33,957 bases of DNA from Candidatus Aenigmatarchaeota archaeon (GTDB taxonomy: Archaea > Aenigmatarchaeota > Aenigmatarchaeia > QMZP01). The stretch lies in assembly GCA_016198585.1 (NCBI GenBank), contig JACQII010000003.1:1-33957 (forward strand), read 5' to 3'. Numbering within the stretch: position 1 is the first letter of the stretch; every line of letters begins with the position of its first letter. Positions 7,494-31,857 of the stretch are shown piece after piece. The notes beneath the pieces are model-generated. The model made no database searches. It saw nothing but the letters and a program-made list of their open reading frames with translations, and had not been told where the DNA came from. The translations under genes and the position numbers were made by a program.

Positions 7494-7583
7494 AGTCATG
7501 CTTGCCGCGTGGCCTTAAATCCCCGCCGCCCCGTTACCGGGAAGCGCCGCGAAGTGAGCGCAGCGAACGCAGCAGCTCCCTCT

Positions 7584-7619
7584 TTTGGGCGCTTTCTGGG
7601 GAAGAAAGTGCTCAGCGGA
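7584..7619. repeat. 36-bp hairpin element, copy 1, overlapping a stop codon
   Basis: This 36-base segment is identical to 25864-25899. It contains GCGCTTTCT-gggga-AGAAAGTGC, a nine-pair stem (7589-7597 with 7603-7611) around a five-base loop; one pair is G-U if read on the plus strand and an A-C mismatch on the minus strand. The stem directly abuts the TGA (7614-7612) of the minus-strand gene, and the identity extends through that gene's last Arg codon. It is not followed by a T-run on the minus strand, so it is not a simple terminator. Confidence 0.85.
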
Positions 7620-9303
7620 CCTGCATCTTCTCCATGATGAAGCCGGTGACTTTCCCCCAGTCGCCGCCGATCGCGCGGGCGTACATCTTGCTCCCGCGCT
7701 CCCGGAAGATGGTCTCATACGGGCCGCGCTTCACGAAGGTGTAGAACATCTTCTCCAGGACGGGCTTGGCCCGGCTCTCCTTGCGCTCCTCGTGGCCGTC
7801 GCCGCGCCGGAAGAGGGGTGGGAAGCGGCCCTTCTTCTCTTCGGGCTGGAACTCCTTCTCGATCCGTTCCAGGGCATCGATCTCGGCCTCGCGCGAGCCG
7901 ATGAGGCTGTTGATCTGCCGCTCGAAGTACTTCTCCCGGGCCCACAGCTCGATGAGGTGGAGGAGCAGGACGTTCTGCGAGATCACGTGGGCCTTGATCG
8001 GGAAGAACATGAGGTTGTCCGTCTCGAAGCCCTCCGGCGGCGGCGTCCTGATGAGGCCGAGGAGGACCTTCGCGTCGTAGAAGATGTAATAGATGACCCG
8101 CTTGTCCATCATCGGGTTGGTGCCCATGGGCTTCTCCATGGCCTTCTTGATGATCTTGTCGACGTCCTTGTCCGTGACGTGCACGCCGTAGCGCGCCTCG
8201 ATCTTCTTCATCCACTTCTTGACGTAGTCGTCATAGGGATCGATGATGAAACCGTGCCTGTTCTTCTTCTCGGTGATGCCCTCGGGTTTGCCCTTCTCGT
8301 GCGGGGAGAAGGGTTTCCAGAACCAGAGGCGCACGCCGGTGATGGCCTGGGACTGGCCGAAGCCCGGGGTCTGGAGCGGGTCGCTGATGAACTCGCTGAC
8401 CTTGTATTCGGTCTTCTCCCGGATCGCCAGGTAGCGGGCCAGGTACGGCTTGAGCCAGTTCCGGTACTCGTCGACCGAGCGCTTCCGGGACTCGACCAAA
8501 ACCTGGAGCCGGGCCACGCGGTCCTTGATCTCGGGGAAGAAGATCTCCTTCCACTCCTTGAAGAGCTGGTTCTTGGTCTTGAGGACCGATGCCTCGGCTG
8601 CCGTGACGTCGAGCTTCTCCTTGATTTCCTTGGTGTCTGTCCATTCAGTCTTCATGCGCACGAAGTCGGTGATGATGGTGGGCCAGCGCTTGGTCATGGA
8701 GATCATGGAGAAACCTTCGCCGGTGTGGGCATCGACCCGGTCCACGAACAGCGTCCTGAGGACGTGGTCGTCCTTGGAAAGCGTGGCCTGCTTGAAGTAG
8801 CTCATGACTTCCTGGTAGCGCCGGAGGTCGTGCCGCAACAGCTCGTAGTCGGCCACGGACTGGGCGGCCGAGGCGAGGCCGGTCTTGATCGACGCCTCCA
8901 GTTTCTGCTTCTGGGCGATGGTGAGGTTGTAGTACTCTGCCCACGTTGGCGTCACCTCGATGAACTCGTCGACCTTCTTCACGACGTAGGACCACTTCGG
9001 CAACTGGAAGACGAAGGAGTAGTAGATGTTCGACCCCGACCCCCGCAGGCCGGTGAAATCCAGCACGGTCTCCATCTCGATCGGTGCGAACGAGACCGCG
9101 GCCCCGGTCTTCGGGCCGCCCTCGACGCCTTTCAACTCCTTGCGGATCTCGTCGGAGACGAAGTTCTCCGGATCGGGGATGGGTACGTCGGTCAGCGGGG
9201 GGATCCTATACGATGCGCTGTGGTCGACTCCCTGATCCTTGCCGTGGCCTTTTCCCTGACCGCCGCCGTGGCTGTCCCCGTGTCCGCCGTGCTCGGCCGC
9301 CAT
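7612..9303 (-). CDS. Unknown 563-residue soluble protein with His/Gly-rich N terminus
   Basis: I do not recognise the family. ATG 9303 is chosen because a TATA-like AATATAAG (9327-9334) is centred 27 nt upstream and AGGAGT lies just before it. Residues 1-28 are rich in His, Gly and Asp (HGGHGDSHGGG pattern), a likely metal-binding or flexible tail. The rest alternates beta-rich (about 50-100) and long charged helical stretches (about 110-310 and 440-520), with Trp/Tyr/Phe-rich patches such as VRLWFWKPF and KRVIYYIFYDAK. There is no signal peptide or membrane helix, so it is probably cytoplasmic. Its stop codon lies inside the 36-bp element shared with the TIM-barrel gene at 25892. It could be structural or an enzyme; no catalytic motif is evident. 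Confidence 0.8.
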   Translation of the reverse strand: MAAEHGGHGDSHGGGQGKGHGKDQGVDHSASYRIPPLTDVPIPDPENFVSDEIRKELKGVEGGPKTGAAVSFAPIEMETVLDFTGLRGSGSNIYYSFVFQLPKWSYVVKKVDEFIEVTPTWAEYYNLTIAQKQKLEASIKTGLASAAQSVADYELLRHDLRRYQEVMSYFKQATLSKDDHVLRTLFVDRVDAHTGEGFSMISMTKRWPTIITDFVRMKTEWTDTKEIKEKLDVTAAEASVLKTKNQLFKEWKEIFFPEIKDRVARLQVLVESRKRSVDEYRNWLKPYLARYLAIREKTEYKVSEFISDPLQTPGFGQSQAITGVRLWFWKPFSPHEKGKPEGITEKKNRHGFIIDPYDDYVKKWMKKIEARYGVHVTDKDVDKIIKKAMEKPMGTNPMMDKRVIYYIFYDAKVLLGLIRTPPPEGFETDNLMFFPIKAHVISQNVLLLHLIELWAREKYFERQINSLIGSREAEIDALERIEKEFQPEEKKGRFPPLFRRGDGHEERKESRAKPVLEKMFYTFVKRGPYETIFRERGSKMYARAIGGDWGKVTGFIMEKMQVR

Positions 9304-9437
9304 ACCTACTCCTTGGTGAGGCGGTCTTATATTGCTGACCGCACGGGCGGCCTCGCCTGCCAGCGGGAGACACGGCGGACGCTTGAGAACCTCTCTCCGG
9401 GGAGGCGACACCTTCGACTGCAGAATTCCGTTAGACC

Positions 9438-12400
9438 TTAGGGAGCAGCCACGATGGTCACGTTCACCGGGTTTGAAACCGAGAGGATGGACTGCGGGAA
9501 CGGCAAGGCGGGGTCAATCGTGACGTACGCCGCGTACAGGGTCGTGTTCACGGGCACGTAGCCAGGGATGGTCCACGTGGCCTGGGAGCTGCCAGTCGCG
9601 TCGAGGAAAGCCACGGAGTTGTTCAAGCCGAACAGCGCCGGGGTCTGCAGGCTGAGTTGGAAAGTCGAGTCATAGTTCAGCGGGACGGTCCTACCGTCTC
9701 CCAGGGGGATGCCGGGACTGGACCCGAGAGAGAACAGGAGGAGGAAGAGGGCGCCGGGATTGCCGAGGTCAGACAGCGCATACGTGATCGTGCCAAGCTT
9801 CTGGGGGGTTCCGGAAACGGCGAGGGTGGCGATATTCACGTCGGTAACGGCGATGAGGATCGTTTCCTCGTCGCTGAGCTGCCCGTCGGTGACGGTGAAC
9901 GTCACGGGATACGTGTCGGCGTCGGTGAAGCCGGGAGTCCACGTGAAGAGGCCGGCCTGGGGGTCAAAGGCCGGCTGGCCAGGCAAGACCGCCAGGGCGT
10001 CGGTGGTGAATGTGAGGGTGTCGTTGTCGGGATCGGTCGCCTGGAGGTAGAGGGAGAGGGTCTGGTTCTCCGGAATGACCAGGCCGCCGGGAGGGGAAAG
10101 GACAGGCGGGAGGTTGTTCACGACCGTGAGCTCGGTGTCAGGTTCGTAGTAGGGGGAACTGCCGCCGAACGCGTCCGTGGCCCTGCATCGCAACTCGAAT
10201 GTCGTGCCGTCAGGGTACGCAGAGAGGTTCCAGGTGAAGGCAGAGTCATTGGCATGGGACCCTATGAGTGCCCAGGACGTGGATGCATCGACCGAAACGA
10301 GCGGCGGCGCAGCGCTCGCCTGCGCGAGGTCCAGGATCGTTTGCGGATTCGCGTAGTCTACCGCCGCGAGATATTTCAAAGAAAGGGAAAAGGTATCGCC
10401 TGGCTGGATCGTGACCGGGGAGCTGCTGGTGAAGGCGTAGTTGCAGCTGTTCTGGTAACCGGCGCAGAATCCGGTCGCTGTTTGGGGAAGAAGCGATGCA
10501 GTCTGCGGGGAAGGGAGGAAGAGGAGAGTTTGGGATGTCTGATTGTTCAGAAGGGCGGCGAGGGCAGGAGAACCGAGAGGGTGGATGACCGAGTTGCTGA
10601 AGGGTACCATCGTGAGCGCGCCCGACACATTCATGTAGATCCAGTGGCCGAAGGAGGAGTTGAAGTACCGCACGTCGAGGAAGCGGACGTCAGCCTTGGT
10701 GATCGGGCTGTTCATCCGCTTCACCACGACTACGGGGTCGGCGTCCGACCACACGTGGATCTCCGCGACCCAGTTCGGGTCGGCGCTTGAGGTGGCGTTG
10801 TAGAAGGCGTAGAAGGGGGATCCTTCTTGGAGCGTGAACGTGAAGGTCTCCCACTGTGTGCCTGAATAGAAGGAGAATGTGGCGTTCCCGCCTGCGCCGT
10901 CGAAGGTGTTGGAAAGGAGGTCGAACCCAGGGTAATGGTGCGAGCAGGTGACCCTCCCCGTCGAGGACGGGCAGTTGATGGTGACGAAGGTGTCGGGAGC
11001 CCAGCTGATCGTGTTCGTCCCGGCGACCACGTTCCCGGGATAGGAAGGCGGGCCGAGAGAGGTGTTGGTGATGACCGCATAGTGCGCCACGCCATCGAGG
11101 TCGGCGAGGAAGGTGACGACCCCCCGCGCCTCGCTGACGAAGCTCGGCACCTCTTCGCCGGTCTCCGAGCACGACCCCTTCCGCACGCGCAGGGTTGGGT
11201 CCGCCTCCGGGAGACTGGGGAGGTCAAGGAAGACGGGAACCTTGGTCCGGGCAACCGGTTGGGGCAGGGGATCGCTGAGGGTCACGGTGGTGCAGATCTC
11301 CGTGGTGGGGGAGAGCGAACGCGCCTCGATCTCGTAGAAGAATGGATGCCCGTCCTGGTCAGACGATCCTGAGCAGGAGACGGTGGCCGCCCCATTGAAG
11401 GTGGAGGAGCAGCTCCCTGCGTCGCAGGTGAGTGCTGTCGGGGCTGACGGGGGGTTGTTCTTCTCGCAGTCGATCGTACAGCCGCCTGTGCCTGCGATGA
11501 CCCCCTCGCAGAACGGGTCGGCGGTGCATCCCGGGGCAAAGAGGGAAGAACGGCAGGTGAAGCCCGCATCTCCCGCGGTGCAGAGGCTGGAGCAGGTGTC
11601 GCCGAAGTATGGCTTATCCGTGCTGCAGCTGGGGATGGCAGACCCGGGAAGCGCGCCGTCGCAGGCAGCGGAAGCGCCGCAGGCAGCCGCACAGACCTCG
11701 ACGACGTCGTCTCCGGCTCCCTGCCAGTCGCAGCGCAGGCCAGGAAGCGGGGAGCACTGCCCGCCGAGACTCTCGTCACAGGAAGCGGGGGCATCGCAGG
11801 CTGTCTCGGCGGAGAGCGCGCAGTCGGTCCCCGCGGCCTCACAGGCCCGCTCGTTGAACTGCCCTCCTGCCTCGCAGGTGTCCTCCCCGGGAGCGAGCTC
11901 ATCGCAGGAAGCGGGGGCGCCGAACCCGAACTCGCAGGTTCCCCCGCTGCAGGAGAGCCCGGTTCCGGCGCAGAGCAGGCTCGATTCGAGTTCGCCGTTC
12001 CGGCAGGCCTCCCCATAGGCGTTGCACGACCCATCAGAACAGGTCATCCCTCCCGGGGATGCGGCGACGCACTCGCCGCCGTTCACTGAGCAGGACGAGC
12101 CGCAGCAGAAGCCCCCATTCTTTGCCGGCGTGCCGAGGCCGCATTGGCCGTCCGCGCAGTCCACGAACCCGTCACAGTCGTTGTCGAACCCGTCGTTGCA
12201 GATCTCTGCCTGGAGGCAGGACACGCACGTGTTGCTCAGAGGGTTGTTATCCGGCTTGTGGCAGTACTTCCCCGGACCGCAGTCCGCGTCCGCCCCGCAG
12301 TTCAACACCAGGTACTTCTCGCTGTGCTCACCCACGTCGAACTGGCCGTTCCCGTTCGTGTCCCAGTACTCCCAGAGGTCGCCCCCGTAGAACCCGTACC

Positions 12401-14498
12401 CGTACGGGTCCCCAGGAGGGTAACTGGAGAGACACAGGACGTCTGGAAAGTCCACGTGGTCGAGCTGGTTCGGATAGGTTTTCGTGACCGTAACGGTCTT
12501 CTCCGCCTTCTGGTCGCACGTGCCGTCATAGCACCCGTAAGACTTCGTGTAGGCAAAGTTCACGATGTCGCTCACCGTATAGCCGGACTTGACCTCGCAG
12601 CGGAACCACGCCTTGTACGTGTCTCCTGTCAGGATATAGTGCTCCAGATACTCGTCAGTGTCGACGTTCCCGTAATGCCACTGGTACCCGTTCGCGCAGT
12701 AGGGACCGTACTGTATGGTGTCGACGTACCCTGAGTAGGGAGGCTCGTTCACGACGACCGACCAGTCGTAGCATTCGTTCCCATCGCCGCCGCAGATGTT
12801 CTCATCGGCCTGCCCGTCGCAGTCGGTGTCGATCCCGTCATGTGGGCAGACCTCCGCGACCGGCCCCTGCCCTCCGGTGCAGGATCCCCACTGCCCGCTG
12901 GTGCAGGTCTGGGTCCCCAGGGAGCATGCCCCGGTATCGGTTCCGCATGCCTGGGTCTGCCCACTGATGCAGCTGCATCCTTCATCAACGGAACCGTCGC
13001 AGTTGTCGTCCACGCCGTTGCAGAGCTCGGTGGCACCCGGGACGCCGGTGCCGCAGTTCGCCGTGCACTGCCCGGTCGCGACGTCGCACCCGAAGGGGCA
13101 CGCTTCGACCAGTTCCTCGGAGATCGTCGCATCCAGGATGCAGATGCCCTCGGTGGGGACGGCGGAGCTGCAGGAATAGTGGTAGTCGTGGATGAGGTCG
13201 TACTGATCGCCGTCCTGGCAGAAGGGGGAGGAGAAGCTGTAGTCCTGGGCCGCGCAGACGGTCTGGCAGGGGTAGAATCCGCACGGATTCACCGAACAGG
13301 CTGCGACCGCCGCCACGACGCTCGGGTAGACGCAGAATGAGCAGGCGAGAGCGTCAAAGACGATCTTGAAGCCGAGACCTTCCAGGAGGGCCGACCCTGC
13401 CACCTGCAGGAAAGCGGTCTTGGAGGCCACGTCGTCGAGCTGTAGGATCACGTCTGCCACGTCGGCCGTGTCCTGGATGATGGTGAGCGTGTCATAGAGG
13501 CCAACGTCCGCCGCAGGTATGCATTTGCCGCTGATCTCCTGGACGACGAGGTCATTCAACTGCAGGATGAAGGCGGCGGAATCATCATAGTCGTCGAGCG
13601 TGGGAAGGGTGGCCGCCATCGCGTCGAGGCTGGAGAGGATGACCTGCGCGTTCGCGCAGGCATACGTCTGCGACACCTCGAGGGTCAGGTCGTAGAGGTC
13701 CCCGTAGAAGTAGTCTGCCGTGTCCACCAGGGGGTTGTACTCAGTCGGCGCGGTCCCCCCGAACCACGCCGACAGCGAGATGAGAATGTCCAGCAGCTGG
13801 TAGAACCCTGGAGAGCAGATCTCGTTGATGCAGAAGTCGTTGTAGTAGAACCCCCACTCCAGGGCGTAGCCCTGGCAGACGGACGTGCTGCAGCTGACCT
13901 GGCTCTCTTGCTGCCCGGGAGCGTTCACGACCTTCCGGTTCACCACGTCGATGTCGATCCTGCCTTCCCTGGAGAACAGCCGCATGAGGGTCGTCCCGTT
14001 CTCCTTGTGGAAGTCGAACAGCGCCGAGCCCTGCATCCCCTGCTCCGTGTCGAGGCTCCGCATCAGGTACAGGACCGAGCCGTTCTCCGAGAAGAACAGC
14101 TGGAGGGTGACCACGGTCCCGGGAGTGGAGATCTCGACGGCCTTCCCGGCCGCGGGGAATCCCAGCTCCTGGGCATAGGCCTGCATGTCCCGGAACAGCG
14201 AATCCTCCTGCGCTATAGCCGCGACCTCTTCTGGCGCAAGCTTGCGGACCGTCGCGTTGTCGAAACGGGGAAGCCGCGGTTGGTAGCGCTCCCCTTGCTG
14301 CGGTGAGGAGATGGAGGGGACACCGGCAACGGAAAACGGGCCGTTGAGGCTGCTGACGGGAGGCTTCCAGGACTGCGGTTCCCCGGCGGTCGCCGGTTGG
14401 TCAGAAGAAAATGAGGAAAATGCAGCGGAAGGGAAGGCAAGGGAAAGGCCTAAGAAAAGGAGGACGACAATTGCCACGGCCTTTGTTGGTAATCCCAT
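9438..14498 (-). CDS. Giant secreted multidomain protein, cysteine-rich, MopE and cadherin/Ig-like modules
   Basis: The 1686-residue protein starts with a clear signal peptide (basic start, hydrophobic residues about 7-24, small residues after). Residues about 200-450 form a Cys-containing helical domain. Residues about 490-575 hold MopE-type units (CNGVDDNCDGSVDEGC and CPHDGIDTDCDGQAD). Residues about 750-1030 are extremely Cys-rich with short CDxxxxC and CEAAGTDC units. Residues about 1466-1553 form a cadherin/Ig-like domain (VIPENQTLSLYLQATDPDND, then FTVTDGQLSDEETI). Many N-x-S/T sequons occur in the C-terminal half. No C-terminal membrane helix is seen, so it is secreted or held by other proteins. 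AGGAGG (14505-14510) precedes ATG; the TATA-like GTTTTTATG lies at 14535-14543. It is divergent from the FG-GAP protein, suggesting linked cell-surface roles. Confidence 0.88.
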   Translation of the reverse strand: MGLPTKAVAIVVLLFLGLSLAFPSAAFSSFSSDQPATAGEPQSWKPPVSSLNGPFSVAGVPSISSPQQGERYQPRLPRFDNATVRKLAPEEVAAIAQEDSLFRDMQAYAQELGFPAAGKAVEISTPGTVVTLQLFFSENGSVLYLMRSLDTEQGMQGSALFDFHKENGTTLMRLFSREGRIDIDVVNRKVVNAPGQQESQVSCSTSVCQGYALEWGFYYNDFCINEICSPGFYQLLDILISLSAWFGGTAPTEYNPLVDTADYFYGDLYDLTLEVSQTYACANAQVILSSLDAMAATLPTLDDYDDSAAFILQLNDLVVQEISGKCIPAADVGLYDTLTIIQDTADVADVILQLDDVASKTAFLQVAGSALLEGLGFKIVFDALACSFCVYPSVVAAVAACSVNPCGFYPCQTVCAAQDYSFSSPFCQDGDQYDLIHDYHYSCSSAVPTEGICILDATISEELVEACPFGCDVATGQCTANCGTGVPGATELCNGVDDNCDGSVDEGCSCISGQTQACGTDTGACSLGTQTCTSGQWGSCTGGQGPVAEVCPHDGIDTDCDGQADENICGGDGNECYDWSVVVNEPPYSGYVDTIQYGPYCANGYQWHYGNVDTDEYLEHYILTGDTYKAWFRCEVKSGYTVSDIVNFAYTKSYGCYDGTCDQKAEKTVTVTKTYPNQLDHVDFPDVLCLSSYPPGDPYGYGFYGGDLWEYWDTNGNGQFDVGEHSEKYLVLNCGADADCGPGKYCHKPDNNPLSNTCVSCLQAEICNDGFDNDCDGFVDCADGQCGLGTPAKNGGFCCGSSCSVNGGECVAASPGGMTCSDGSCNAYGEACRNGELESSLLCAGTGLSCSGGTCEFGFGAPASCDELAPGEDTCEAGGQFNERACEAAGTDCALSAETACDAPASCDESLGGQCSPLPGLRCDWQGAGDDVVEVCAAACGASAACDGALPGSAIPSCSTDKPYFGDTCSSLCTAGDAGFTCRSSLFAPGCTADPFCEGVIAGTGGCTIDCEKNNPPSAPTALTCDAGSCSSTFNGAATVSCSGSSDQDGHPFFYEIEARSLSPTTEICTTVTLSDPLPQPVARTKVPVFLDLPSLPEADPTLRVRKGSCSETGEEVPSFVSEARGVVTFLADLDGVAHYAVITNTSLGPPSYPGNVVAGTNTISWAPDTFVTINCPSSTGRVTCSHHYPGFDLLSNTFDGAGGNATFSFYSGTQWETFTFTLQEGSPFYAFYNATSSADPNWVAEIHVWSDADPVVVVKRMNSPITKADVRFLDVRYFNSSFGHWIYMNVSGALTMVPFSNSVIHPLGSPALAALLNNQTSQTLLFLPSPQTASLLPQTATGFCAGYQNSCNYAFTSSSPVTIQPGDTFSLSLKYLAAVDYANPQTILDLAQASAAPPLVSVDASTSWALIGSHANDSAFTWNLSAYPDGTTFELRCRATDAFGGSSPYYEPDTELTVVNNLPPVLSPPGGLVIPENQTLSLYLQATDPDNDTLTFTTDALAVLPGQPAFDPQAGLFTWTPGFTDADTYPVTFTVTDGQLSDEETILIAVTDVNIATLAVSGTPQKLGTITYALSDLGNPGALFLLLFSLGSSPGIPLGDGRTVPLNYDSTFQLSLQTPALFGLNNSVAFLDATGSSQATWTIPGYVPVNTTLYAAYVTIDPALPFPQSILSVSNPVNVTIVAAP

Positions 14499-14619: not shown

Positions 14620-17600
14620 ATGGACTGGCCGCGGCGTGCTCCTTCTCTCCTTTTCGTGGGCGTCATGGTGGCGCTCGTCATCCTCTCCTTCTCCAATGAC
14701 CTCCTCGCCGGGCGCGCAACCCTCCCGCTCCAGCGGCAGGTCAGCAAGTCGCCCGCGCCGTTCGCTCCATTTACCCCCTTCGGGGAGGGGCCCGAGGCGG
14801 ATGCCCAGCAAGTTCCGCAGGGCGGGTCCGACGAAAAGCACCTGGAGTGCCAGGGGCAGTCGTGCGTGTCCGTCTGGGGCGCGGGGGCGAACCAGTGCTC
14901 CACGGACAGCGACTGTGCCGAGCCGCCGGAGTCCCACCTGGAATGCCAGGGCGGCGCCTGCCTCCAGGTCACGGGTGCAGGTACTGATGAGTGCGTGACC
15001 GACGGCGACTGCTCCCACCTCGGTTGCCAGGGTCAGACCTGCGCCCTGATCCCGTCTCCAGGGCCCGACCTCTGCTCGACCGACCTGGACTGCAACAGCA
15101 CCACCGGATCAGGGCCAGCCACCCACCTCACCTGCGAGAACATGGCGTGTGTGGAAGTCCCCGGCGACGGGCCTGACACGTGCAACTGGGACTTCCAGTG
15201 CGTCAGCACCGTCTGCCAGGACAAGGCGTGCGTGAAACAGCCCGGCAACGGCACCAACCAGTGCAGCTCCAGTTTCGAGTGCTACGGCGACCTCGTCATC
15301 ATCGGATCAGGATATAATTCATTTAACACATATGACGGAAGCGTGACCGTGCTTTCATCGGTCGATGGGGAGATGCTCTGGGAAACAGACACGTATCCTG
15401 AGGGTTTTGGGAGCGCGGTCAATGGCGTTTCTGATGTCAATGGAGACAACTTTAACGATGTCGTCGTTGGACAATATCGCTTCGACTTCAACAATGACTC
15501 CAGCCCGTTTCAAGGGCGGGTCTACATCTTCGATGGACTCAGCGGGACGACACTTCTCGATCTGAAACACGAAGTAACGCCGGAAGAGGTCATCTATGGA
15601 TGGTTTGGCTTTGCCGTTTCTCCTGGCGGAGACATCAATAATGACAAGATAGGTGACATCCTTGTCACCTCCCCTAGATATGGGACGAATTTCAACGGAC
15701 GTGTCTATGCGCTTTCAGGGAAGGACGGAAAGACCCTATGGACACACACCGGCGTTGACGACGGCCATCTTGGGGAGGGGGTTATAGCCTACGTTTCCAG
15801 CCTGGAGCAATCCATTACGAGCATGAGAGAGGGCGTCTTTACTGATGAGAACGTGCTATTCTTCTCGAAAAATGGAAATCTCCTCCAGACGAAGGACAGC
15901 GAAAAGATCTATCTTGACATCTCATTGGGCTGGGTCCCAGACACCAGCGGCGATGGCCAGCCGGACGTTCTCGTCGGAGAGCCGAGCGGCTATACGGCCA
16001 GCGGAGTGTGGTCCGAAAAGGGTGAGGTTTCCGTGTATTCCTCTTCGTTCTCGCTCCTCTGGAGCGTGCCCGGAGAAGCAGAGGGTGATCATCTGGGGGA
16101 GAGCGTCAGCGGTGTGGGTGACGTCAATGGCGATGGTTACGGAGACGTGATTGTGGGGGCGCCGGGCTATGAAAAGTACAATGGGACGGGCTATGGAACG
16201 GACAACGGGAAAGTCTACGTCTTCTCGGGGGCGGACGGAAGCCTGATCTGGAGCAGGGAAGGTGAACCACAATGGGGAGGGCCATGGGGGTGGATTGATT
16301 CAGAGTTCGGGTGGTCTGTGTCAGGGGTGCATGACATCAATGCTGACGGATACGGCGACGTCATTGTCGGCGACTATCTTTTTGGCGATCTTAAATTCAA
16401 CTCGGAAGATAATGGAAAGGTATATGCCTTCTCGGGGAACAACGGCTCCTTGCTCTGGGAGCGCAAGGGAGCCCAAAAACAATACCTGGGATGGGACGTG
16501 AAGACAGTGCGGCTGTCGGCCTCGGCCTGCGGCGACCACGTCTGCGAGGGCAAGGAGACCGCGCAGACCTGCCCCAACGACTGTTCGATCACCTGCGCGA
16601 AGGACGTCCTCGTCGCCGTGGGGTCGGGTGGGAAGGTCTTCCGCTTCAACGAAACCTGTCCCGCATCACTCGGCAGCGCGTGCTCCTTCTGGAACATCAC
16701 GGCATGGAACGAGACCGTCCTCGGGGAATTCGGGACCGGCGACATCCGCGCCATTGCGCACAATGGCCTGTCGGGGATCGACAGCCTCTTCGCGCTCGGC
16801 GGGAGCTTCGGGAAGCTGTTCACCTCCAATGACGGAGTCTCCTGGACCCCCAGGTACAGCGCGTTCGATACCGACGACATCCGGGACATCGTATACGGCA
16901 ACGGCCTCTGGGTCGCCGTCGGCGAGCAGGGAGCGATCTCCACCTCAGCCGACGGCATCAGCTGGACGGCCCGGCAGAGCGGGACGACCGCGACGCTTAC
17001 TGCGACCGCCTATGGCGGCCAGTGGCTCGCCGGCGGGCAGAACGGGCAGCTCACCAGGTCGGCCGACGGCGTCGTTTGGACACCCTATACACCGGGCACG
17101 TTCGATGGCGGCACGGTTAACGACCTCCTCTACACCGAGACGCCACCCGAGTTGTTGCCGACCTACGGGCACCCGGGAATCTGGGCGGCGGTCACCAGCA
17201 GCGGCAAGCTGAGCACGTCCTTCGACGGTATCGCGTGGAGCGCGCCCCTCGCCGTCACAGGCAAAAGTCTCCAGACCCTGGACTACCATTACATGCACAG
17301 CCAGGTTCCGGCCAACCCGTCGATCACGACGCCGGTCTGGATAGCCGGGAACAACGCGGGCAAGATGTTCCTCTCGACGAACATCCTGGCCGGCCTCGGC
17401 CCGCTGCAGGCGAGCAACTTCGGTACCAGCCCCATCCACGGCGTCATGCACAACGGCGCCGATGGCTGGCCGCAGAGCCTGTGGATCGCGGTCGGCAACG
17501 CCGGAAAGGTGCGGCTCTGGCACGACGACTACTATCCCTTCGAGGACGTCACGTTCATCCCCGGGGCGGACATCGGGGACGTCAAGCTCTTTGACAGCGC

Positions 17601-17628
17601 CTACCTCGCCGGCTCGACGTGCGCCTAG
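14620..17628 (+). CDS. Surface protein: Cys repeats, integrin-like FG-GAP propeller and second beta-propeller
   Basis: The 1002-residue protein has an N-terminal hydrophobic segment (about residues 9-28) acting as signal peptide or anchor. Residues about 74-221 hold five C-x4-C-x10-C-x5-C repeats. Residues about 226-630 hold FG-GAP units with calcium-loop cores such as DVNGDNFND, DINNDKIGD, DVNGDGYGD and DINADGYGD, expected to fold as an integrin-alpha-type propeller. A CGDHVCEGKETAQTCPNDC linker follows, then residues about 657-994 form YCF48/sialidase-like propeller repeats (DGVSWTPR, DGISWTAR, DGVVWTPY). The FG-GAP part is about 50% GC against about 63% on either side. The TATA-like CTTTAATATC (14591-14600) is 25 nt upstream. 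Adhesion or cell-cell contact is the likely role. Confidence 0.88.
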   Translation: MDWPRRAPSLLFVGVMVALVILSFSNDLLAGRATLPLQRQVSKSPAPFAPFTPFGEGPEADAQQVPQGGSDEKHLECQGQSCVSVWGAGANQCSTDSDCAEPPESHLECQGGACLQVTGAGTDECVTDGDCSHLGCQGQTCALIPSPGPDLCSTDLDCNSTTGSGPATHLTCENMACVEVPGDGPDTCNWDFQCVSTVCQDKACVKQPGNGTNQCSSSFECYGDLVIIGSGYNSFNTYDGSVTVLSSVDGEMLWETDTYPEGFGSAVNGVSDVNGDNFNDVVVGQYRFDFNNDSSPFQGRVYIFDGLSGTTLLDLKHEVTPEEVIYGWFGFAVSPGGDINNDKIGDILVTSPRYGTNFNGRVYALSGKDGKTLWTHTGVDDGHLGEGVIAYVSSLEQSITSMREGVFTDENVLFFSKNGNLLQTKDSEKIYLDISLGWVPDTSGDGQPDVLVGEPSGYTASGVWSEKGEVSVYSSSFSLLWSVPGEAEGDHLGESVSGVGDVNGDGYGDVIVGAPGYEKYNGTGYGTDNGKVYVFSGADGSLIWSREGEPQWGGPWGWIDSEFGWSVSGVHDINADGYGDVIVGDYLFGDLKFNSEDNGKVYAFSGNNGSLLWERKGAQKQYLGWDVKTVRLSASACGDHVCEGKETAQTCPNDCSITCAKDVLVAVGSGGKVFRFNETCPASLGSACSFWNITAWNETVLGEFGTGDIRAIAHNGLSGIDSLFALGGSFGKLFTSNDGVSWTPRYSAFDTDDIRDIVYGNGLWVAVGEQGAISTSADGISWTARQSGTTATLTATAYGGQWLAGGQNGQLTRSADGVVWTPYTPGTFDGGTVNDLLYTETPPELLPTYGHPGIWAAVTSSGKLSTSFDGIAWSAPLAVTGKSLQTLDYHYMHSQVPANPSITTPVWIAGNNAGKMFLSTNILAGLGPLQASNFGTSPIHGVMHNGADGWPQSLWIAVGNAGKVRLWHDDYYPFEDVTFIPGADIGDVKLFDSAYLAGSTCA
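14839..15282 (+). repeat. Five tandem four-cysteine repeats (C-x4-C-x10-C-x5-C)
   Basis: All five copies keep the same cysteine spacing exactly, with a consensus near HLxCQxxxC...GxGxxxC..D..C. Four cysteines per roughly 26-residue unit suggest two disulfides or a metal-stabilised knob. The repeat sits between the membrane segment and the FG-GAP propeller and may act as a stiff stalk. Confidence 0.85.
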
Positions 17629-18702: not shown

Positions 18703-19254
18703 ATGGTTTTTGCCCGCGCCAAGCTGGTCCTGGAAGACAACTGCTTCGAGGAAGAGCCGTCGACCATGACGATCAAGCTGGAAGGCCCGCATGTGCAGCG
18801 GATGTACAAGGTCGCCTACGAGATGATCAAGTCCGTCTTCAACGTGACCGATTCCGACGTCCAGGAGACCCAGGTCAAGATCTCCAAGACCGAGCACGGT
18901 GACAAGTATGACGTGGTCTGGTGGCTCCACAAGGACATGGACGTGTTCAGCTACTTCTACATCTCGTTCAAGTTCAAGGCCCAGGGCGACCTGAAGTCGG
19001 GCAGCCTCACCATGGCGGTCAAGGGCCTGCTGCGCAGCGAATATCCGCAGGACACGGTCTGGCAGCGGTCGCTGATCTACGAGATGCTCCGGACGTTCTG
19101 GCACCGGCTCTTCTACCACAAGAAGCGCGAAGACTACGCGGAAGAGTGCAGGCACGCCATGGTCATTTACCAGCGCAAGTTCGTCGAATATTTCAACCGG
19201 CTCAAAGAAGTAGCGCCGGCAGCGGGTGGTCACAGTGGGAACCCTGAGCATTGA
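18703..19254 (+). CDS. Unknown protein, first of a tandem paralogous pair
   Basis: I do not recognise this 183-residue family. The N terminus has LVLEDNCF, then an amphipathic helix with MYKVAYEMIKSVFNV, a central strand-rich part with VVWWLHKDMD and YFYISFKFKAQG, and a C-terminal helical half with FWHRLFYHKKREDYAEECRHAMVIY. There is no signal peptide or membrane helix. The next gene is a diverged copy with the same element order, and the two overlap by 29 nt. TATA-like candidates lie at 18663-18670 and 18681-18688. A strand-strand-helix layout recalls lipid- or ligand-binding folds, but that is only an impression. Confidence 0.8.
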   Translation: MVFARAKLVLEDNCFEEEPSTMTIKLEGPHVQRMYKVAYEMIKSVFNVTDSDVQETQVKISKTEHGDKYDVVWWLHKDMDVFSYFYISFKFKAQGDLKSGSLTMAVKGLLRSEYPQDTVWQRSLIYEMLRTFWHRLFYHKKREDYAEECRHAMVIYQRKFVEYFNRLKEVAPAAGGHSGNPEH

Positions 19255-19750
19255 GGACGACTGCCTGACGCCCGAACGGTACGCCTACCTCACCTACTCG
19301 GGTCCGGACCCGTGGGGCGTGTTCAAGAAGATCACCGACAGCCTCAAGCCCTTCTTCCACATCTCGACCTCCTCGACGAACAACGACCGGCTGAACTGGG
19401 ACATCTCCGGGGACCCGATCACCTTCTACTCGCTCTGGTGGGTCAAGAAGAAGATGAGCGGCATCTCTCTCGCGAAGATCACCATCAAAGTCCAGGGCGA
19501 GGTATCCAAGACCACGAACATGGGGAAGTTCACCCTGCAGCTCTACGGCGACCTCTACACTGAATTTTCCGCGCCGTCGATCCTGCTGAAGTCGGCCTGG
19601 CTGCTCTACTCCTACCTCTTCTACAACAAGGCGCGCCAGGCGTACATCACCGAGTGCCAGGGCCTGATCTACAACTTCCGGAACGAGATCAAGAAGCACT
19701 ACAACCTCGACGTCACGAGCGTGCCGGAGCGGGGAGTGGCGTTCGGATGA
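19226..19750 (+). CDS. Unknown protein, second of a tandem paralogous pair
   Basis: This 174-residue protein aligns with its upstream neighbour over most of its length: LSIEDDCL with LVLEDNCF, SLWWVKKKM with VVWWLHKDM, KITIKVQGE with ISFKFKAQG, and LFYNKARQAYITECQ with LFYHKKREDYAEECR. Overall identity is low, so the duplication is old. GTG 19226 is chosen because it restores the same N-terminal length as the paralogue; GTG 19235 is an alternative. The start is inside the upstream gene and the stop overlaps the next start (ATGA), which shows tight translational coupling. Different paralogues kept side by side often form heteromers. Function is unknown. Confidence 0.8.
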   Translation: MVTVGTLSIEDDCLTPERYAYLTYSGPDPWGVFKKITDSLKPFFHISTSSTNNDRLNWDISGDPITFYSLWWVKKKMSGISLAKITIKVQGEVSKTTNMGKFTLQLYGDLYTEFSAPSILLKSAWLLYSYLFYNKARQAYITECQGLIYNFRNEIKKHYNLDVTSVPERGVAFG

Positions 19751-24161: not shown

Positions 24162-25082
24162 ATGCACGCGATCGACGTCGCGGGGGTCTCGAAGGCCTTC
24201 CGCGACCGGAGGACACCGGTCTGGGCGCTCAAGGACGTCGACCTGCACGTCCGGGAGGGTGAGATCTTCGGACTCCTGGGACCGAACGGGGCAGGCAAGA
24301 CGACGCTGCTGAACATCATGATCCGCCTCCTGCTCCCTGACCAGGGGACGGTCCGCATCCTGGGCGAGGACGTGGTCCACAGCGACCGGATCCTCGAGCA
24401 AGTGAACTTCGTCTCGGGCGACGCGCACTTCCACTGGGTCCTCCGGCCCGAGGACGTGCTCCAGTTCTACGCCCGGGCCTACCACCTCCCCACAGCAGTC
24501 CGGGAAGAGCGGATACCTGAACTGATGCGCTTCTTCGGGCTCGAGCGGGTCCGGCATCGGCGGTTCGTCGCGCTGTCCACCGGCGAGCGGATGCGGCTCG
24601 TCTTCGCCAAGGCGATGCTCAACCGCCCGCGGGTCCTGCTCCTGGACGAGCCGACCCTGGGGCTAGATCCATCGATCGCTCAGCGGGTCCGGGCTGAGGT
24701 CGCCCGCGTGAACAGGGCGTTCAAGACCACGATCCTGCTGACGAGCCACTACATGCACGAGGTCGAGCAACTGGCCGACCGGATCGCCTTCATCAACCAG
24801 GGCCAGATCGTGGACACGGGCACGGTCCGGAAGGTCACGGCCAAGCACTTCGGGAGCTACGAGGCCGTGTTCAGCGTGCGCCGAGTCCTGGACCGGGCGT
24901 TCCTGACGCGCCACGGGTTCCGCGTCACGGGCAACGTGCTCTCGGTCCGGCTCCGGTCAGAGGAAGACCTGAGCCCGCTGCTCTCGCTGCTGCACCGGAA
25001 GGGCTACCAGGTCGTTGACGTGCAGACGCGGAAGCCGACCCTGGAGGACTACTTCGTGAAGGTCGCGGGAGGGAAACCATGA
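24162..25082 (+). CDS. ABC transporter ATP-binding protein (ABC-2 exporter type)
   Basis: The 306-residue ATPase has Walker A GPNGAGKTT, an ABC signature LSTGERMRLVFAKAML, Walker B VLLLDEPTLGLDPS and the switch histidine in LLTSHYMHEVE. The roughly 80-residue C-terminal extension is typical of drug- or polysaccharide-export (DrrA/NatA-like) ATPases. ATG 24162 is 26 nt from the TATA-like GGTTTTAAGG, so the message is leaderless; the longer frame upstream is GC-rich readthrough. Its stop overlaps the permease start (ATGA at 25079-25082). The exported substrate is unknown. Confidence 0.93.
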   Translation: MHAIDVAGVSKAFRDRRTPVWALKDVDLHVREGEIFGLLGPNGAGKTTLLNIMIRLLLPDQGTVRILGEDVVHSDRILEQVNFVSGDAHFHWVLRPEDVLQFYARAYHLPTAVREERIPELMRFFGLERVRHRRFVALSTGERMRLVFAKAMLNRPRVLLLDEPTLGLDPSIAQRVRAEVARVNRAFKTTILLTSHYMHEVEQLADRIAFINQGQIVDTGTVRKVTAKHFGSYEAVFSVRRVLDRAFLTRHGFRVTGNVLSVRLRSEEDLSPLLSLLHRKGYQVVDVQTRKPTLEDYFVKVAGGKP

Positions 25083-25858
25083 GAGGCTACAAGATTCGGG
25101 CGCTGATGTTCCGCGACGCCCGCATCCTCGCCCGGTCGAAGTGGCGCTTCACCGAGTTCTTCTACTTCCCGGTCACCACGGTCATCATCTGGGGGCTGTT
25201 CGCGCTCTTCTCGCGGAACTTCTCCCCCGAGGCCGGGCTGATGGTCCTCGCGGTCAACATGTACTGGTCGTTCACCTACCTCGCCCAGTCCACGACCAAC
25301 ATGCAGATGAATGAGGACCAGTGGTCGGGCAGCTTCCACCAGGTGATGGCCTCGGGCTTCAGCCCGTTTGAATACCTCTTCGCGCGGATCCTCACGTCCA
25401 CGATCACGGCCTCGGGCGTGATGGCGATCATGCTGCTGGTCTCGCTGGGCTTCGGGTTGACCATCATCGTCCAGCAGCCCGGCCTGGTCATCACCCTCGC
25501 TGCCATCAGCCTGCTCGGCTCCATCGCGCTCTCGGTCATCGTTGCCGGCCTCATCCTGGTGCTCGGTCGCGAGTACTCGTTCCTGGCCTGGACGGCCGAC
25601 CAGATCTTCATCCTCCTCTCGGCGCCGCTCTATCCGGTTGCCATCCTCCCCGGCTTCCTGCAGGCGGTCGCGATGGTCATGCCGTTCACCTTCGTGTTCG
25701 AGGGTGTGCGGTCGCTCGTGACAGCCGGCGTTGTCGCCGGCCCAGTGCTGGCCACGGCCCTGGTCGCCGTGCTCGCCTACCTGGCCGGCTCCCTGCCGTT
25801 CTACGCCTGGGCCTTCCGGCGGGCGAAGAGGAACGGGACGCTTGCCCGGCTGTTCTGA
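25079..25858 (+). CDS. ABC-2 family permease
   Basis: The 259-residue protein has about six membrane helices and the ABC-2 pattern, with an amphipathic N-terminal helix, FFYFPVTTVIIWGLF as first helix and the SGSFHQVMASGFSPFEY loop typical of NodJ/DrrB-type permeases. It is coupled to the ATPase by a 4-nt overlap, and the two should dimerise into an exporter. The 36-bp hairpin element begins 5 nt after its stop. Confidence 0.9.
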   Translation: MRGYKIRALMFRDARILARSKWRFTEFFYFPVTTVIIWGLFALFSRNFSPEAGLMVLAVNMYWSFTYLAQSTTNMQMNEDQWSGSFHQVMASGFSPFEYLFARILTSTITASGVMAIMLLVSLGFGLTIIVQQPGLVITLAAISLLGSIALSVIVAGLILVLGREYSFLAWTADQIFILLSAPLYPVAILPGFLQAVAMVMPFTFVFEGVRSLVTAGVVAGPVLATALVAVLAYLAGSLPFYAWAFRRAKRNGTLARLF

Positions 25859-25863
25859 CATTC

Positions 25864-25899
25864 TTTGGGCGCTTTCTGGGGAAGAAAGTGCTCAGCGGA
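25864..25899. repeat. 36-bp hairpin element, copy 2, overlapping a stop codon
   Basis: This copy is identical to 7584-7619 over 36 bases. The same nine-pair stem (25869-25877 with 25883-25891) abuts the TGA (25894-25892) of the TIM-barrel gene. Here it also lies just 3' of the ABC permease on the opposite strand, so it separates two convergent genes. Confidence 0.85.
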
Positions 25900-27928
25900 A
25901 CTCGGCCTTCTTCCAGACCTCCGGCCGCTTCCCCTTCTTGATCGCGGTCTGGGAGAGCATCGTCCATTCTTCCTCGGGGATCTCGAGCAGGTCCTTCATC
26001 GGCTCAAAGGCGTGGTCGCGGACGATCTGCATCTGCCGGTTGATGTCCCCGGCCGTGAGGCCTTTCATCCCGAAGAACTCCAGGGGAAGCTTGTCGACCG
26101 GCGTCGGCGGGTTCGTCCCGAGGAACTGTGCCATCAACCGGAGGGTCTCGATCGAGTGCTGGAACGGGTCCTGCCCGCCGCCGCGCTCGAAGACCATGTA
26201 GCCGGGCTGGTCTCCCTGGCCGAAGCCCGTGACGCGCAGGTTGTAGAGCAGCTCGTAGAGGACGACATCGCCCAGCTCCAGCGGCGCATGCGGCTGGAGC
26301 GGGTTCGGGTGGTTGGCGTGGCATGAAATGGTGAGCTTCCCGAAGTCCGGCGTCTTCAGGACGTAGTCCCGTGATTCGATCAAGGCATCAATCCCCTGCG
26401 TGGCGACGTGCTCGTGGTCGAGGACCATCATCACCTTGTCCGTCTTCAGCGTCCGGCGGATGGTCTTCACCGCGGCGTAGATCTGCTTGTACCGGAAGAG
26501 GAAGTAGAGGCCGGCATGTGACGTCTCCCGGGCGTCCGGGTTCTCGAACCCGATGATGAGGCGCTTGGTCACCTCGGTCAATTCATGCAGCTCTTCCTTG
26601 CTCGTCGCCAGCCGGGGCAGGTCCTTCTTGATGAAGTCGCCGTAGAGCCAGTTGAAGGCCGTCTTCAAGTGGCCTTCAAGGTACTTTGCCGCGACGGCGG
26701 CGTAGAAGAACTCCTTGTATTCCCGGTCGTTCCACGTCTCGGCCTTCCGCCAGGCCTCGTCCAGCCACTTCGCGTCAGCGGTCGGATGGGAGAAATTGTA
26801 TCCGTACTTCTTCAGGACGTCCCGGTACTCGTGGACCATCGCCACCCAAATCGGGTCCTGGGTGTAGAAGAGGTAGTGGGACATGATCTGGTAGCCGTCC
26901 ACGAGGCCGAGCACCTGGCGGAGCTCCTCGCTGTACCACCGGCGCTTCTTCGCGTCCGGGTTGGACAGCTTCTCGCGCAGGTAGTCGTCGAGGACCCGGT
27001 CGCGGAGCTTGGAGCTCTCGGTCGAGGTGTCTTCCCGGAGCTGGTCGTAGACGCGCTGGAGCGTGACGTCGATCTCCTTGTCGCCGGTCTTGGCGGGCAG
27101 CCCCCTGACGAGGAAGGCCTCCACCTGGTTCTCGATGAACTCATCCGGGTCGCCGTTCACGTGCTGCAGCCGCGCCCGCGCCCGCTCGAGGCGGGCCCGG
27201 TCTGCCGGGTGCAGTCCCGGATTGTTGAGGATCTCCGGGTTCCGGTAGACGATCGCCGCCTCCTCGTCCCGGGCGATGAGCCGCGCGACCGCCTCGTCAT
27301 GGAGGGTCCGCCCGATCCGTTCGCGGAGCGGCCGCAGGGCCGCCCGGACCCGGCGGTCGGTCTCCTCCTTCCGCCACCGGTCGGTCTCGACGCTGATCCG
27401 GGTGCTGACTTCGATGTTCTCGTCCCGGTTCAGGATGTCGTGGGTGTAGTTGTCGGCCTTCTCGGTGATGAACCACTCCCGCGTCGCCTGGTTCTTGTAG
27501 AGGATCTCGCTGATGAACTGGCCTTCGCTGTCGACGAACGAGGCCGAGAGCTTGCGCCCGGCGTAGGTGATCAGCTCGAGCCACATGTTGAGGCAGGCGT
27601 GGAAGTTGCAGTAGTGGGCTCCCAGGAAGACCGCGGACTGGAGCGACTTCTTCATCCGGTCCTGGGCGTCCCGCCACTCCCCCCGCTCGGGGATCTCGAA
27701 CGGGACCTGGAGGTCGCCGTGCAGGTTCAGCTGCACGCCTTGCTTCTTGGCGATGTGGCGGATCTCCTGGCCTTGGGTGAAGTTCACCTCGTGGGCCACG
27801 TCAGCGGCGATTTCCATGGTGGCAACGCCGCGGGTCAGCGTATAGCCCACCTTGCGGATGGCGTTGATGAGTTCGGGATCGCGGGCGGCGTAGTAGATCC
27901 CTGAGCTGGTTCCCACGCGCAGCGGCAT
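25892..27928 (-). CDS. Xylose isomerase/AP-endonuclease-like TIM-barrel protein with large insertion
   Basis: The 678-residue protein has two regions resembling opposite halves of a xylose isomerase/endonuclease IV-type barrel. Residues 1-115 include LRVGTSSGIYYA, VQLNLHGDLQVPF and HYCNFHACLN; residues about 498-600 include MMVLDHEHVATQ (D503-H506), LTISCHANHPNPLQPH (about 535) and MVFERGGGQDPF (E about 580), positions where the fold carries metal-binding His, Asp and Glu. Between them lies a roughly 380-residue charged helical insertion. The substrate is unknown; sugar-phosphate isomerisation or nucleic-acid cleavage are both compatible. A TATA-like CTTTTTAAG (27958-27966) gives a short leader of about 8 nt. 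Its stop lies in the 36-bp element. Confidence 0.72.
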   Translation of the reverse strand: MPLRVGTSSGIYYAARDPELINAIRKVGYTLTRGVATMEIAADVAHEVNFTQGQEIRHIAKKQGVQLNLHGDLQVPFEIPERGEWRDAQDRMKKSLQSAVFLGAHYCNFHACLNMWLELITYAGRKLSASFVDSEGQFISEILYKNQATREWFITEKADNYTHDILNRDENIEVSTRISVETDRWRKEETDRRVRAALRPLRERIGRTLHDEAVARLIARDEEAAIVYRNPEILNNPGLHPADRARLERARARLQHVNGDPDEFIENQVEAFLVRGLPAKTGDKEIDVTLQRVYDQLREDTSTESSKLRDRVLDDYLREKLSNPDAKKRRWYSEELRQVLGLVDGYQIMSHYLFYTQDPIWVAMVHEYRDVLKKYGYNFSHPTADAKWLDEAWRKAETWNDREYKEFFYAAVAAKYLEGHLKTAFNWLYGDFIKKDLPRLATSKEELHELTEVTKRLIIGFENPDARETSHAGLYFLFRYKQIYAAVKTIRRTLKTDKVMMVLDHEHVATQGIDALIESRDYVLKTPDFGKLTISCHANHPNPLQPHAPLELGDVVLYELLYNLRVTGFGQGDQPGYMVFERGGGQDPFQHSIETLRLMAQFLGTNPPTPVDKLPLEFFGMKGLTAGDINRQMQIVRDHAFEPMKDLLEIPEEEWTMLSQTAIKKGKRPEVWKKAEFR

Positions 27929-31230: not shown

Positions 31231-31857
31231 ATGGGCAGCGCAGCGTCAGAGTTCCAGGTCAAGGTCGAGAACGTCGTCGCCTTCACCTCCCTCGGCAAGA
31301 AGGTCCCCCTCCTCGAGATTTCCAACAAGCTCGAGGACGCTGAATATGCCCCGGAATCGTTCCCTGGCGTGGTCTACCGGGTGAAAGACCCGCGCGCGGC
31401 GACCCTGATTTTCTCCTCCGGCAAGATCGTCTGCACCGGTGCTAAGAGCATTGACAAGGCCAAGGAGGCCATGGTCAAGGTGGTCGGCGACATCCGGAAG
31501 CTGGGCATCCGCATGCCGACCAAGTTCACGATCACGGTCGAGAACATAGTCGCCTCCACCCAGATCGAAGTGGCGAAGAACCAGAAGCTCAACCTCGAGG
31601 AGATCTCCTTCTCGCTCGAGAACGTGGAATATGAGCCAGAGCAGTTCCCTGGCCTGGTCTGCAGGATTTCCGAGCCCCGCGTCGCGTTCCTGGTGTTCGG
31701 GTCGGGCAAGATCATCTGCACCGGCGCCCGGAACATCCAGGACATCCACGTCGCGCTGGGGAAGCTCCGCCAGCGGCTGGAAGCCATCGGCGTCAAGGCG
31801 CGGCCGGCGAAGTGGCTTGATGTTCTCCCCAAGAAAGCCAACAAAGAAGGGAGCTAA
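31231..31857 (+). CDS. tbp: TATA-binding protein (archaeal TBP)
   Basis: The 208-residue protein shows the two imperfect direct repeats of the TBP saddle: FQVKVENVVAFTSL...YAPESFPGVVYRV...ATLIFSSGKIVCTGAKS and FTITVENIVASTQI...YEPEQFPGLVCRI...AFLVFGSGKIICTGARN. It recruits TFB and RNA polymerase to TATA promoters such as those seen throughout this window. The first repeat starts near residue 7, and a 30-residue basic tail ends the protein, longer than in many archaea. It follows the MNT-HEPN gene but has its own promoter. Confidence 0.96.
   Translation: MGSAASEFQVKVENVVAFTSLGKKVPLLEISNKLEDAEYAPESFPGVVYRVKDPRAATLIFSSGKIVCTGAKSIDKAKEAMVKVVGDIRKLGIRMPTKFTITVENIVASTQIEVAKNQKLNLEEISFSLENVEYEPEQFPGLVCRISEPRVAFLVFGSGKIICTGARNIQDIHVALGKLRQRLEAIGVKARPAKWLDVLPKKANKEGS

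Follow-up and report, generated by a model that had tools for sequence, protein, structure and literature searches.

Repetitive extragenic palindromic (REP) sequences and bacterial interspersed mosaic elements (BIME) are short imperfect palindromes, often located near stop codons and sometimes arranged in tandem, and the attC sites of integrons are imperfect hairpins at the 3' end of a gene. Archaeal introns with the bulge–helix–bulge (BHB) motif interrupt tRNA and rRNA genes, the transposed tRNA introns of Thermoproteales included. Among mRNAs, the cases named in PMC7714728 are cbf5 and the 5' untranslated region of HVO_1309, neither of them described there as lying at a stop codon. In E. coli, REPs placed less than 16 nt from a stop codon were reported to stall ribosomes (PMC12306157), and archaeal transcription termination involves U-tracts together with aCPSF1 (PMC8716108). 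Here we analyzed a stretch of 33,957 nt (the window), which is the whole contig C11 (JACQII010000003.1) of a metagenome-assembled genome (MAG) of an uncultured Aenigmatarchaeota archaeon of the DPANN group (941,554 bases in 16 contigs, 76% complete), and followed a hairpin module that stands directly behind the stop codons of two of its protein genes, A and B, and has relatives inside RNA genes. We propose, with a probability of roughly 0.5, that it represents a scattered, structured RNA module, about 33 nt long, with two homes, the introns of RNA genes and a 3'-end signal at stop codons, and that it spread by copying.

As BHB introns do, the module interrupts RNA genes, and a tRNA-Thr is restored when a segment holding it is removed; in one related genome the sequence that follows the module is complementary to the exon and is predicted to form a central helix of 4 bp with it. 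Unlike these introns, it also occurs behind stop codons and behind the signal recognition particle (SRP) RNA, and no BHB is predicted at A and B. It shares with REP/BIME the extragenic position, with 10 copies in the window's own genome and none of them in a called gene, but it is present in only about 10 copies per genome and also lies inside RNA genes as introns. The U-rich stretch just behind the stop and the enrichment of T-rich tracts in the window's own genome recall the U-tract/aCPSF1 terminators, whereas the U-run of the module belongs to the 5' arm of a hairpin that is conserved together with its A-rich tail, and is found inside tRNA and rRNA genes too. The module is much shorter than attC sites, no attC core motif was seen in it on viewing by eye, and, unlike attC, it has copies inside RNA genes.

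Results

An identical repeat at the ends of two unrelated genes

The same 36 bases (TTTGGGCGCTTTCTGGGGAAGAAAGTGCTCAGCGGA) were found at positions 7584-7619 and 25864-25899 with differing flanks, which confirmed the exact repeat reported in the initial annotation, a reading of the window from its letters alone. The repeats mark the ends of two genes on the minus strand: gene A (7612..9411, 599 aa), which has no Pfam family and is conserved in Aenigmatarchaeota, and gene B (25892..27928, 678 aa), the ancestral downstream neighbour of A, with a weak xylose-isomerase-like TIM barrel under the Pfam cut-off. The two have no sequence relation, as the annotation had stated, and it had also placed the start of the repeat in the last Arg codon and the TGA within it: both genes end CGC TGA (Arg-stop), and the stem begins immediately 3' of each stop codon. 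Module copy 1 (GCACTTTCTTCCCCAGAAAGCGCCCAAAAGAGG, 7579..7611, minus strand) lies directly 3' of the gene A TGA (7612-7614) and copy 2 (GCACTTTCTTCCCCAGAAAGCGCCCAAAGAATG, 25859..25891, minus strand) directly 3' of the gene B TGA (25892-25894). The 36-bp repeat comprises the module and the last 8 coding bases, TCCGCTGA in gene sense at gene A (7584..7619) and their counterpart at gene B (25864..25899).

In the window's own genome (G000), only these two exact copies of the 36-mer were present, and its 23-base core, which gave 0 chance matches across 100 shuffles, was found at just two sites with up to three mismatches allowed; genome-wide counts for G000 cover the MAG minus 66,295 bases of contig C15. 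The view that the 36-mer is a unique two-copy repeat was nevertheless ruled out, since low-stringency searches, for which the G000 sequence was pieced together from stretches, recovered a family of diverged copies. Predicted folding gave −18.0 kcal/mol with 13 pairs, G-U pairs included, for the plus-strand RNA vs. −8.9 kcal/mol for the minus-strand RNA, in agreement with the better plus-strand pairing noticed in the annotation. The stem in gene sense contains A.C mismatches, one of which recurs in related copies.

A structured family with a common sense

The copies have in common the sense of the host RNA, a hairpin with a pyrimidine 5' arm, and a CCAAARAA tail. The module is an imperfect hairpin of about 33 nt in which the pyrimidine 5' arm is answered by a purine 3' arm, and its consensus, GCAC-YYYYYY-loop-RRRRRR-GCGC-CCAAARAA, is given for the minus strand, on which A and B are encoded. 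Two covariance models were built, and the genomes searched with them were G000 and its Aenigmatarchaeota relatives (G001, G004, G012, and others), all of them incomplete MAGs with genes called in this analysis. Model R1, the first, was in the plus-strand sense, contained six sequences, and showed covariation; it matched the tRNA-located copies in G000, many copies in G012, and some in G004. Model R2, in the sense of the host gene, contained 18 sequences from G000, G001, and G004. In its alignment, 87% of the cells were paired and both sides had changed in 7/10 pairs, with a covariation of 0.400 vs. 0.182 (standard deviation 0.026) for shuffled and at most 0.158 for slid controls. R2 found 10 copies in G000 at E ≤ 0.01 and 9 to 16 matches in each of G001, G004, G012, G018, and G022 at E ≤ 0.1, the E-values being rough and partly circular for the training copies. 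Copies 1 and 2, both in the training set, scored E = 2e-4 and E = 7e-5, respectively, and the copies of G012 and G022 are outside the training sets of both models.

The relationship was also checked without a model. The 18-mer AAGAAAGCGCCCAAAGAA occurs exactly three times in G004, each time in what was read as a tRNA intron, and with one or two mismatches at gene B, at the SRP RNA, and on contig C6 in G000; module copy 2 includes CAGAAAGCGCCCAAAGAA, which is one base off this 18-mer. Its counts in other genomes were like those of a reversed control. The covariation and the shared 18-mer demonstrate that the copies are related, but not the way in which they moved.

Both models fit because the element is near-palindromic. 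The plus strand was at first taken as the working strand, the sense in which R1 was built and also covaried well, but it was abandoned, as the module has the opposite sense in its tRNA, SRP, and mRNA hosts alike. The better plus-strand pairing, from which the annotation had raised a possible antisense or dual-strand role, is no reason to regard the plus strand as functional, since tRNA introns, the SRP flank, and mRNA ends carry the module in host sense. The Rfam search of the window gave no family above the gathering cut-off, and module copies matched Rfam only via their tRNA, rRNA, and SRP host genes.

The module inside RNA genes

In G000, modules were located in the anticodon loop of the tRNA-Pro gene, the D loop of tRNA-Thr, the T loop of tRNA-Leu, and, with a weak match, in a tRNA-Asp gene; in G001, in the D loop of tRNA-Thr. 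G004 has modules in its 16S rRNA gene and in several tRNA genes, of which some are interrupted at least twice. One tRNA-Asp gene of G004 spans a module. After excision of the module segment, ARAGORN called tRNA-Thr in both G000 and G001, and it called none in the unspliced sequences. Single excisions in the Leu, Ala, and other multiply interrupted tRNA genes of G004 did not restore a tRNA, as expected if these genes hold more than one intron; they were read from the sequence. The predicted fold of the G004 L220 pre-tRNA, in which an exon and the stretch behind the module form the 4-bp helix with a 3-nt 3' bulge and a 4-nt 5' side, comes near to a BHB in a relaxed form. The predicted folds of G004 L219 and the G000 tRNA-Thr are different, and those of the A and B ends show no BHB. 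Behind the SRP RNA gene of G000, two modules stand in a row, the first starting beside its 3' end.

The tRNA genes of G004 (L219-L222, L277, and L279) seem to have several introns each, in the D, anticodon, and T loops, and ARAGORN called none of those tested. The G004 16S rRNA gene on contig C4 (L322, 1605-3893) measures 2289 nt against a 1478-position model, so its inserts add up to about 800 nt; one of them contains the module.

The modules in tRNA and rRNA genes are intron bodies; the window copies stand instead behind the complete genes A and B. When the same excision was applied at the window copies, no tRNA was called by ARAGORN. A tRNA remnant or integration site at A and B was rejected, as the likeness to the anticodon/intron region of tRNA-Pro extends over the module only.

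The module at stop codons

Across five genomes, at least 14 genes have the module −3 to +2 nt from their native stop codon, where it either starts right at the stop or opens with the three bases of the stop codon itself. In G000, these are the window genes A and B (TGA), FtsZ (C10:46250, TAA), and a small Zn-ribbon-like open reading frame (ORF; C1:10743, TAA); in G001, gene A (TAG), the genes of ribosomal proteins S10 and L3 (2 nt behind), and CorA (TGA inside); in G012, HerA, PurD, and a YGR210-type GTPase (TAG); in G022, PFOR beta (TAG) and gene A (TAA); and in G035, an FtsX-type permease. Gene A therefore bears the module in three genomes of two genera with TGA, TAG, and TAA, respectively, the G022 ortholog being 52% identical. 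Wherever the host genes have Pfam domains, these extend into the C-terminal region with little or nothing missing, which indicates that the stops are native, and the ends of A and B match the C-termini of their orthologs. Recoding, a role considered in the initial annotation, and an mRNA intron masking the true stop were rejected, as the ORFs end at native C-termini; an interrupted gene was sought at C1:10711 and not found.

None of the 10 G000 copies checked (E ≤ 0.01) lies inside a called gene (P ~3e-6 vs. 76% coding). Several copies of G012 and G022 sit 50-90 nt behind a stop or have no clear gene. Stop-anchored hairpins of any sequence were not clearly enriched in G000 (4/563 genes at offset 0 vs. 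0-3 at control offsets). T-rich tracts in this genome peak 0-40 nt behind stops, which fits archaeal U-tract termination (PMC8716108).

Altogether, the search of the genome and its relatives with a structure model bore out the link to stop codons that the initial annotation had put forward, but it also disclosed a second home in RNA genes. Of the two explanations offered there, the common 3' signal agrees with the tie to stops but has to reach beyond mRNA, given that the module also occurs in introns of tRNA and rRNA genes and beside the SRP RNA; a small repeat that spreads is compatible with the findings as well.

In G001, which belongs to the same genus as G000, the copies behind S10, L3, and CorA are arrayed in tandem, one every 38 or 41 bp (L054, G001:C111 4333-4447; L276; L281; L316), and in this genome the loops of the final L3 copy and the first copy at gene A enclose a nested hairpin of about 50 nt. 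The loci of G012 and G022 (L209-L218 and L225-L250) show a longer composite repeat at gene ends, GGAAGGC-[variable GC-rich hairpin]-GCCTCCCTTTTT-CG-[TARCCTTTTTNGGAAAAAGGYTA], which in some cases recurs in tandem every 76-78 nt and which holds an intrinsic-terminator-like second unit, GGAAGGC..GCCTCC-CTTTTT. In the window, copy 1 has a companion part (7540..7583, plus strand) made of a GC-rich hairpin region and a T-rich tract, GGAAGCG...AGCAGCTCCCTCTTTTGGG, which is similar to the GGAAGGC...GCCTCCCTTTTT portion of the G012/G022 elements and homologous to the flank of the SRP-RNA copy at C2:16811-16877 (blastn 73%, 67 columns, E = 1e-5); it is missing at copy 2. The 36-mer at copy 2 also lies 5 nt 3' of the ABC-2 permease gene (25079..25858, plus strand), whose 3' end converges on it. 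Finally, a weak candidate for a decayed third member (31818..31850, plus strand; R1 seed; R2 E = 1.2) overlaps the end of the gene at 31231-31857.

Separation of genes A and B

Orthologs of A and B are present in most of 25 genomes, and in most genomes with orthologs (e.g., G001, G002, and G004) B directly follows A on the same strand. The window has them in the reversed order B ... A, with 16.5 kb between them. Two paralogous genes of about 180 aa (18703-19254 and 19226-19750) adjoin A in nearly all relatives examined; these old upstream neighbours are now 9 kb from A. Two large genes, 9438-14498 (1686 aa, with MopE-type metal-binding and Ig-like domains) and 14620-17628 (1002 aa, with FG-GAP repeats), separate A from the pair that directly precedes it in relatives. 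The separated, reversed order implies that the region was rearranged, or else misassembled at the 36-bp repeat; swapping the order at the repeat fails to give the ancestral A-B order. An integrated element between direct repeats was rejected, as the 18.3 kb between the copies carries genes with orthologs beside A in relatives.

The native C-terminus of gene B in G004 and G001 is ...EFR, with TTC CGC before the stop, and the last residue of the A orthologs in G001, G002, G004, G005, and G022 is K or E. The window gene A ends in R with the same 8 bases as gene B, which suggests that the tract was copied from the end of B to that of A. Since A and B are former neighbours, the shared 36-mer is unlikely to be independent of the rearrangement, and there is probably a connection between the event that parted the genes and the identity of their two copies.

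Discussion

The identity of the two repeats, the family and its fold, the position at stop codons, the location within introns, and the adjacency of A and B in relatives were demonstrated; from them we infer the manner of spreading, the 3'-end function, and the link to the rearrangement. In RNA genes, the module as the intron body would have to be spliced out to leave a working RNA. At the native stop of protein genes, where it stands singly or in tandem, its most likely role is that of a compact 3'-end signal. The U-rich 5' arm directly behind the stop, together with the hairpin, may help to end or protect the transcript, and between convergent genes the module could act at 3' ends on both strands. 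Such tight placement argues for a part in transcript ending or protection, or in ribosome behaviour at the stop. The family most likely spread by copying, and the two window copies would be identical owing to a recent event of copying or recombination, probably that which separated A from B, in which one copy and the 8 final coding bases next to it were carried to the end of the other gene.

Several observations weigh against this explanation. The U-runs are 3-4 long in G000 and runs up to 5-6 occur within tRNA-gene modules, which argues against an efficient terminator, and for this reason we hold the 3'-end role, as judged from sequence, with moderate confidence. Copy 1 has no upstream plus-strand gene, so a two-strand role is not general, and, when folded in gene sense together with their flanks, the A and B ends were no more stable than shuffles. 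The training set of R2 drew on both homes, so the E-values of those copies are not independent. A related module also follows the stop of gene A in G001, which leaves the direction of copying between the A and B ends uncertain.

A bolder version, which we regard as tentative, is that the intron body itself is a mobile module that colonises mRNA 3' ends exactly at stops, one element in two states, spliced where harmful and kept as a 3' signal otherwise.

The main rival to a 3'-end role is a neutral or selfish palindrome, similar to REPs or miniature inverted-repeat transposable elements, which copies itself and persists where harmless, at 3' ends and in spliceable RNA genes, with no function at stop codons. 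Such a repeat is a possible but doubtful alternative. It would account for the variation of copies among genera and sites, for the 38- and 41-bp arrays of G001, some with the nested 50-nt hairpin, and for the avoidance of called genes in G000, but a tolerated insertion is expected anywhere in the 3' region, yet the module keeps within −3 to +2 nt of the stop in 14 genes, and gene A retains it in three genomes despite the changing stop codon. Moreover, a REP-type Y1 transposase (RAYT; Y1_Tnp, PF01797) had no match in the incomplete genomes G000, G001, G012, and G022, and one match in G004.

Ordinary archaeal terminators, i.e., U-rich hairpins behind stops that converged in sequence and resemble introns by coincidence, are an unlikely source of the family. 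The peak of T-rich tracts behind G000 stops, the terminator-like unit in the G012/G022 element, and the role of U-tracts with aCPSF1 in archaeal termination (PMC8716108) are in line with such an origin, but neither the exact 18-mer in three tRNA introns of another genus nor the shared CCAAARAA tail behind the hairpin is expected from U-tract convergence, and comparable U-runs occur inside tRNA genes. It is very improbable that the stop-codon hairpin serves to slow ribosome release and lower expression as E. coli REPs do, since, although a distance of 0-2 nt from the stop falls in the REP-active range (PMC12306157), the hosts include S10 and L3, which are expected to be highly expressed, and the G000 hairpin is weak in gene sense (−8.9 kcal/mol).

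The module connects the stop-codon hairpins of protein genes with tRNA and rRNA introns, two things not known to be linked, and almost nothing relevant to this DPANN group was found in the literature. As to the way in which archaeal tRNA introns spread, the module, if it is indeed both an intron body and a free-standing element at stop codons, would give these introns a concrete source and make their moves traceable, and the DPANN group would possess an unusual 3' element tied to the stop codon itself.
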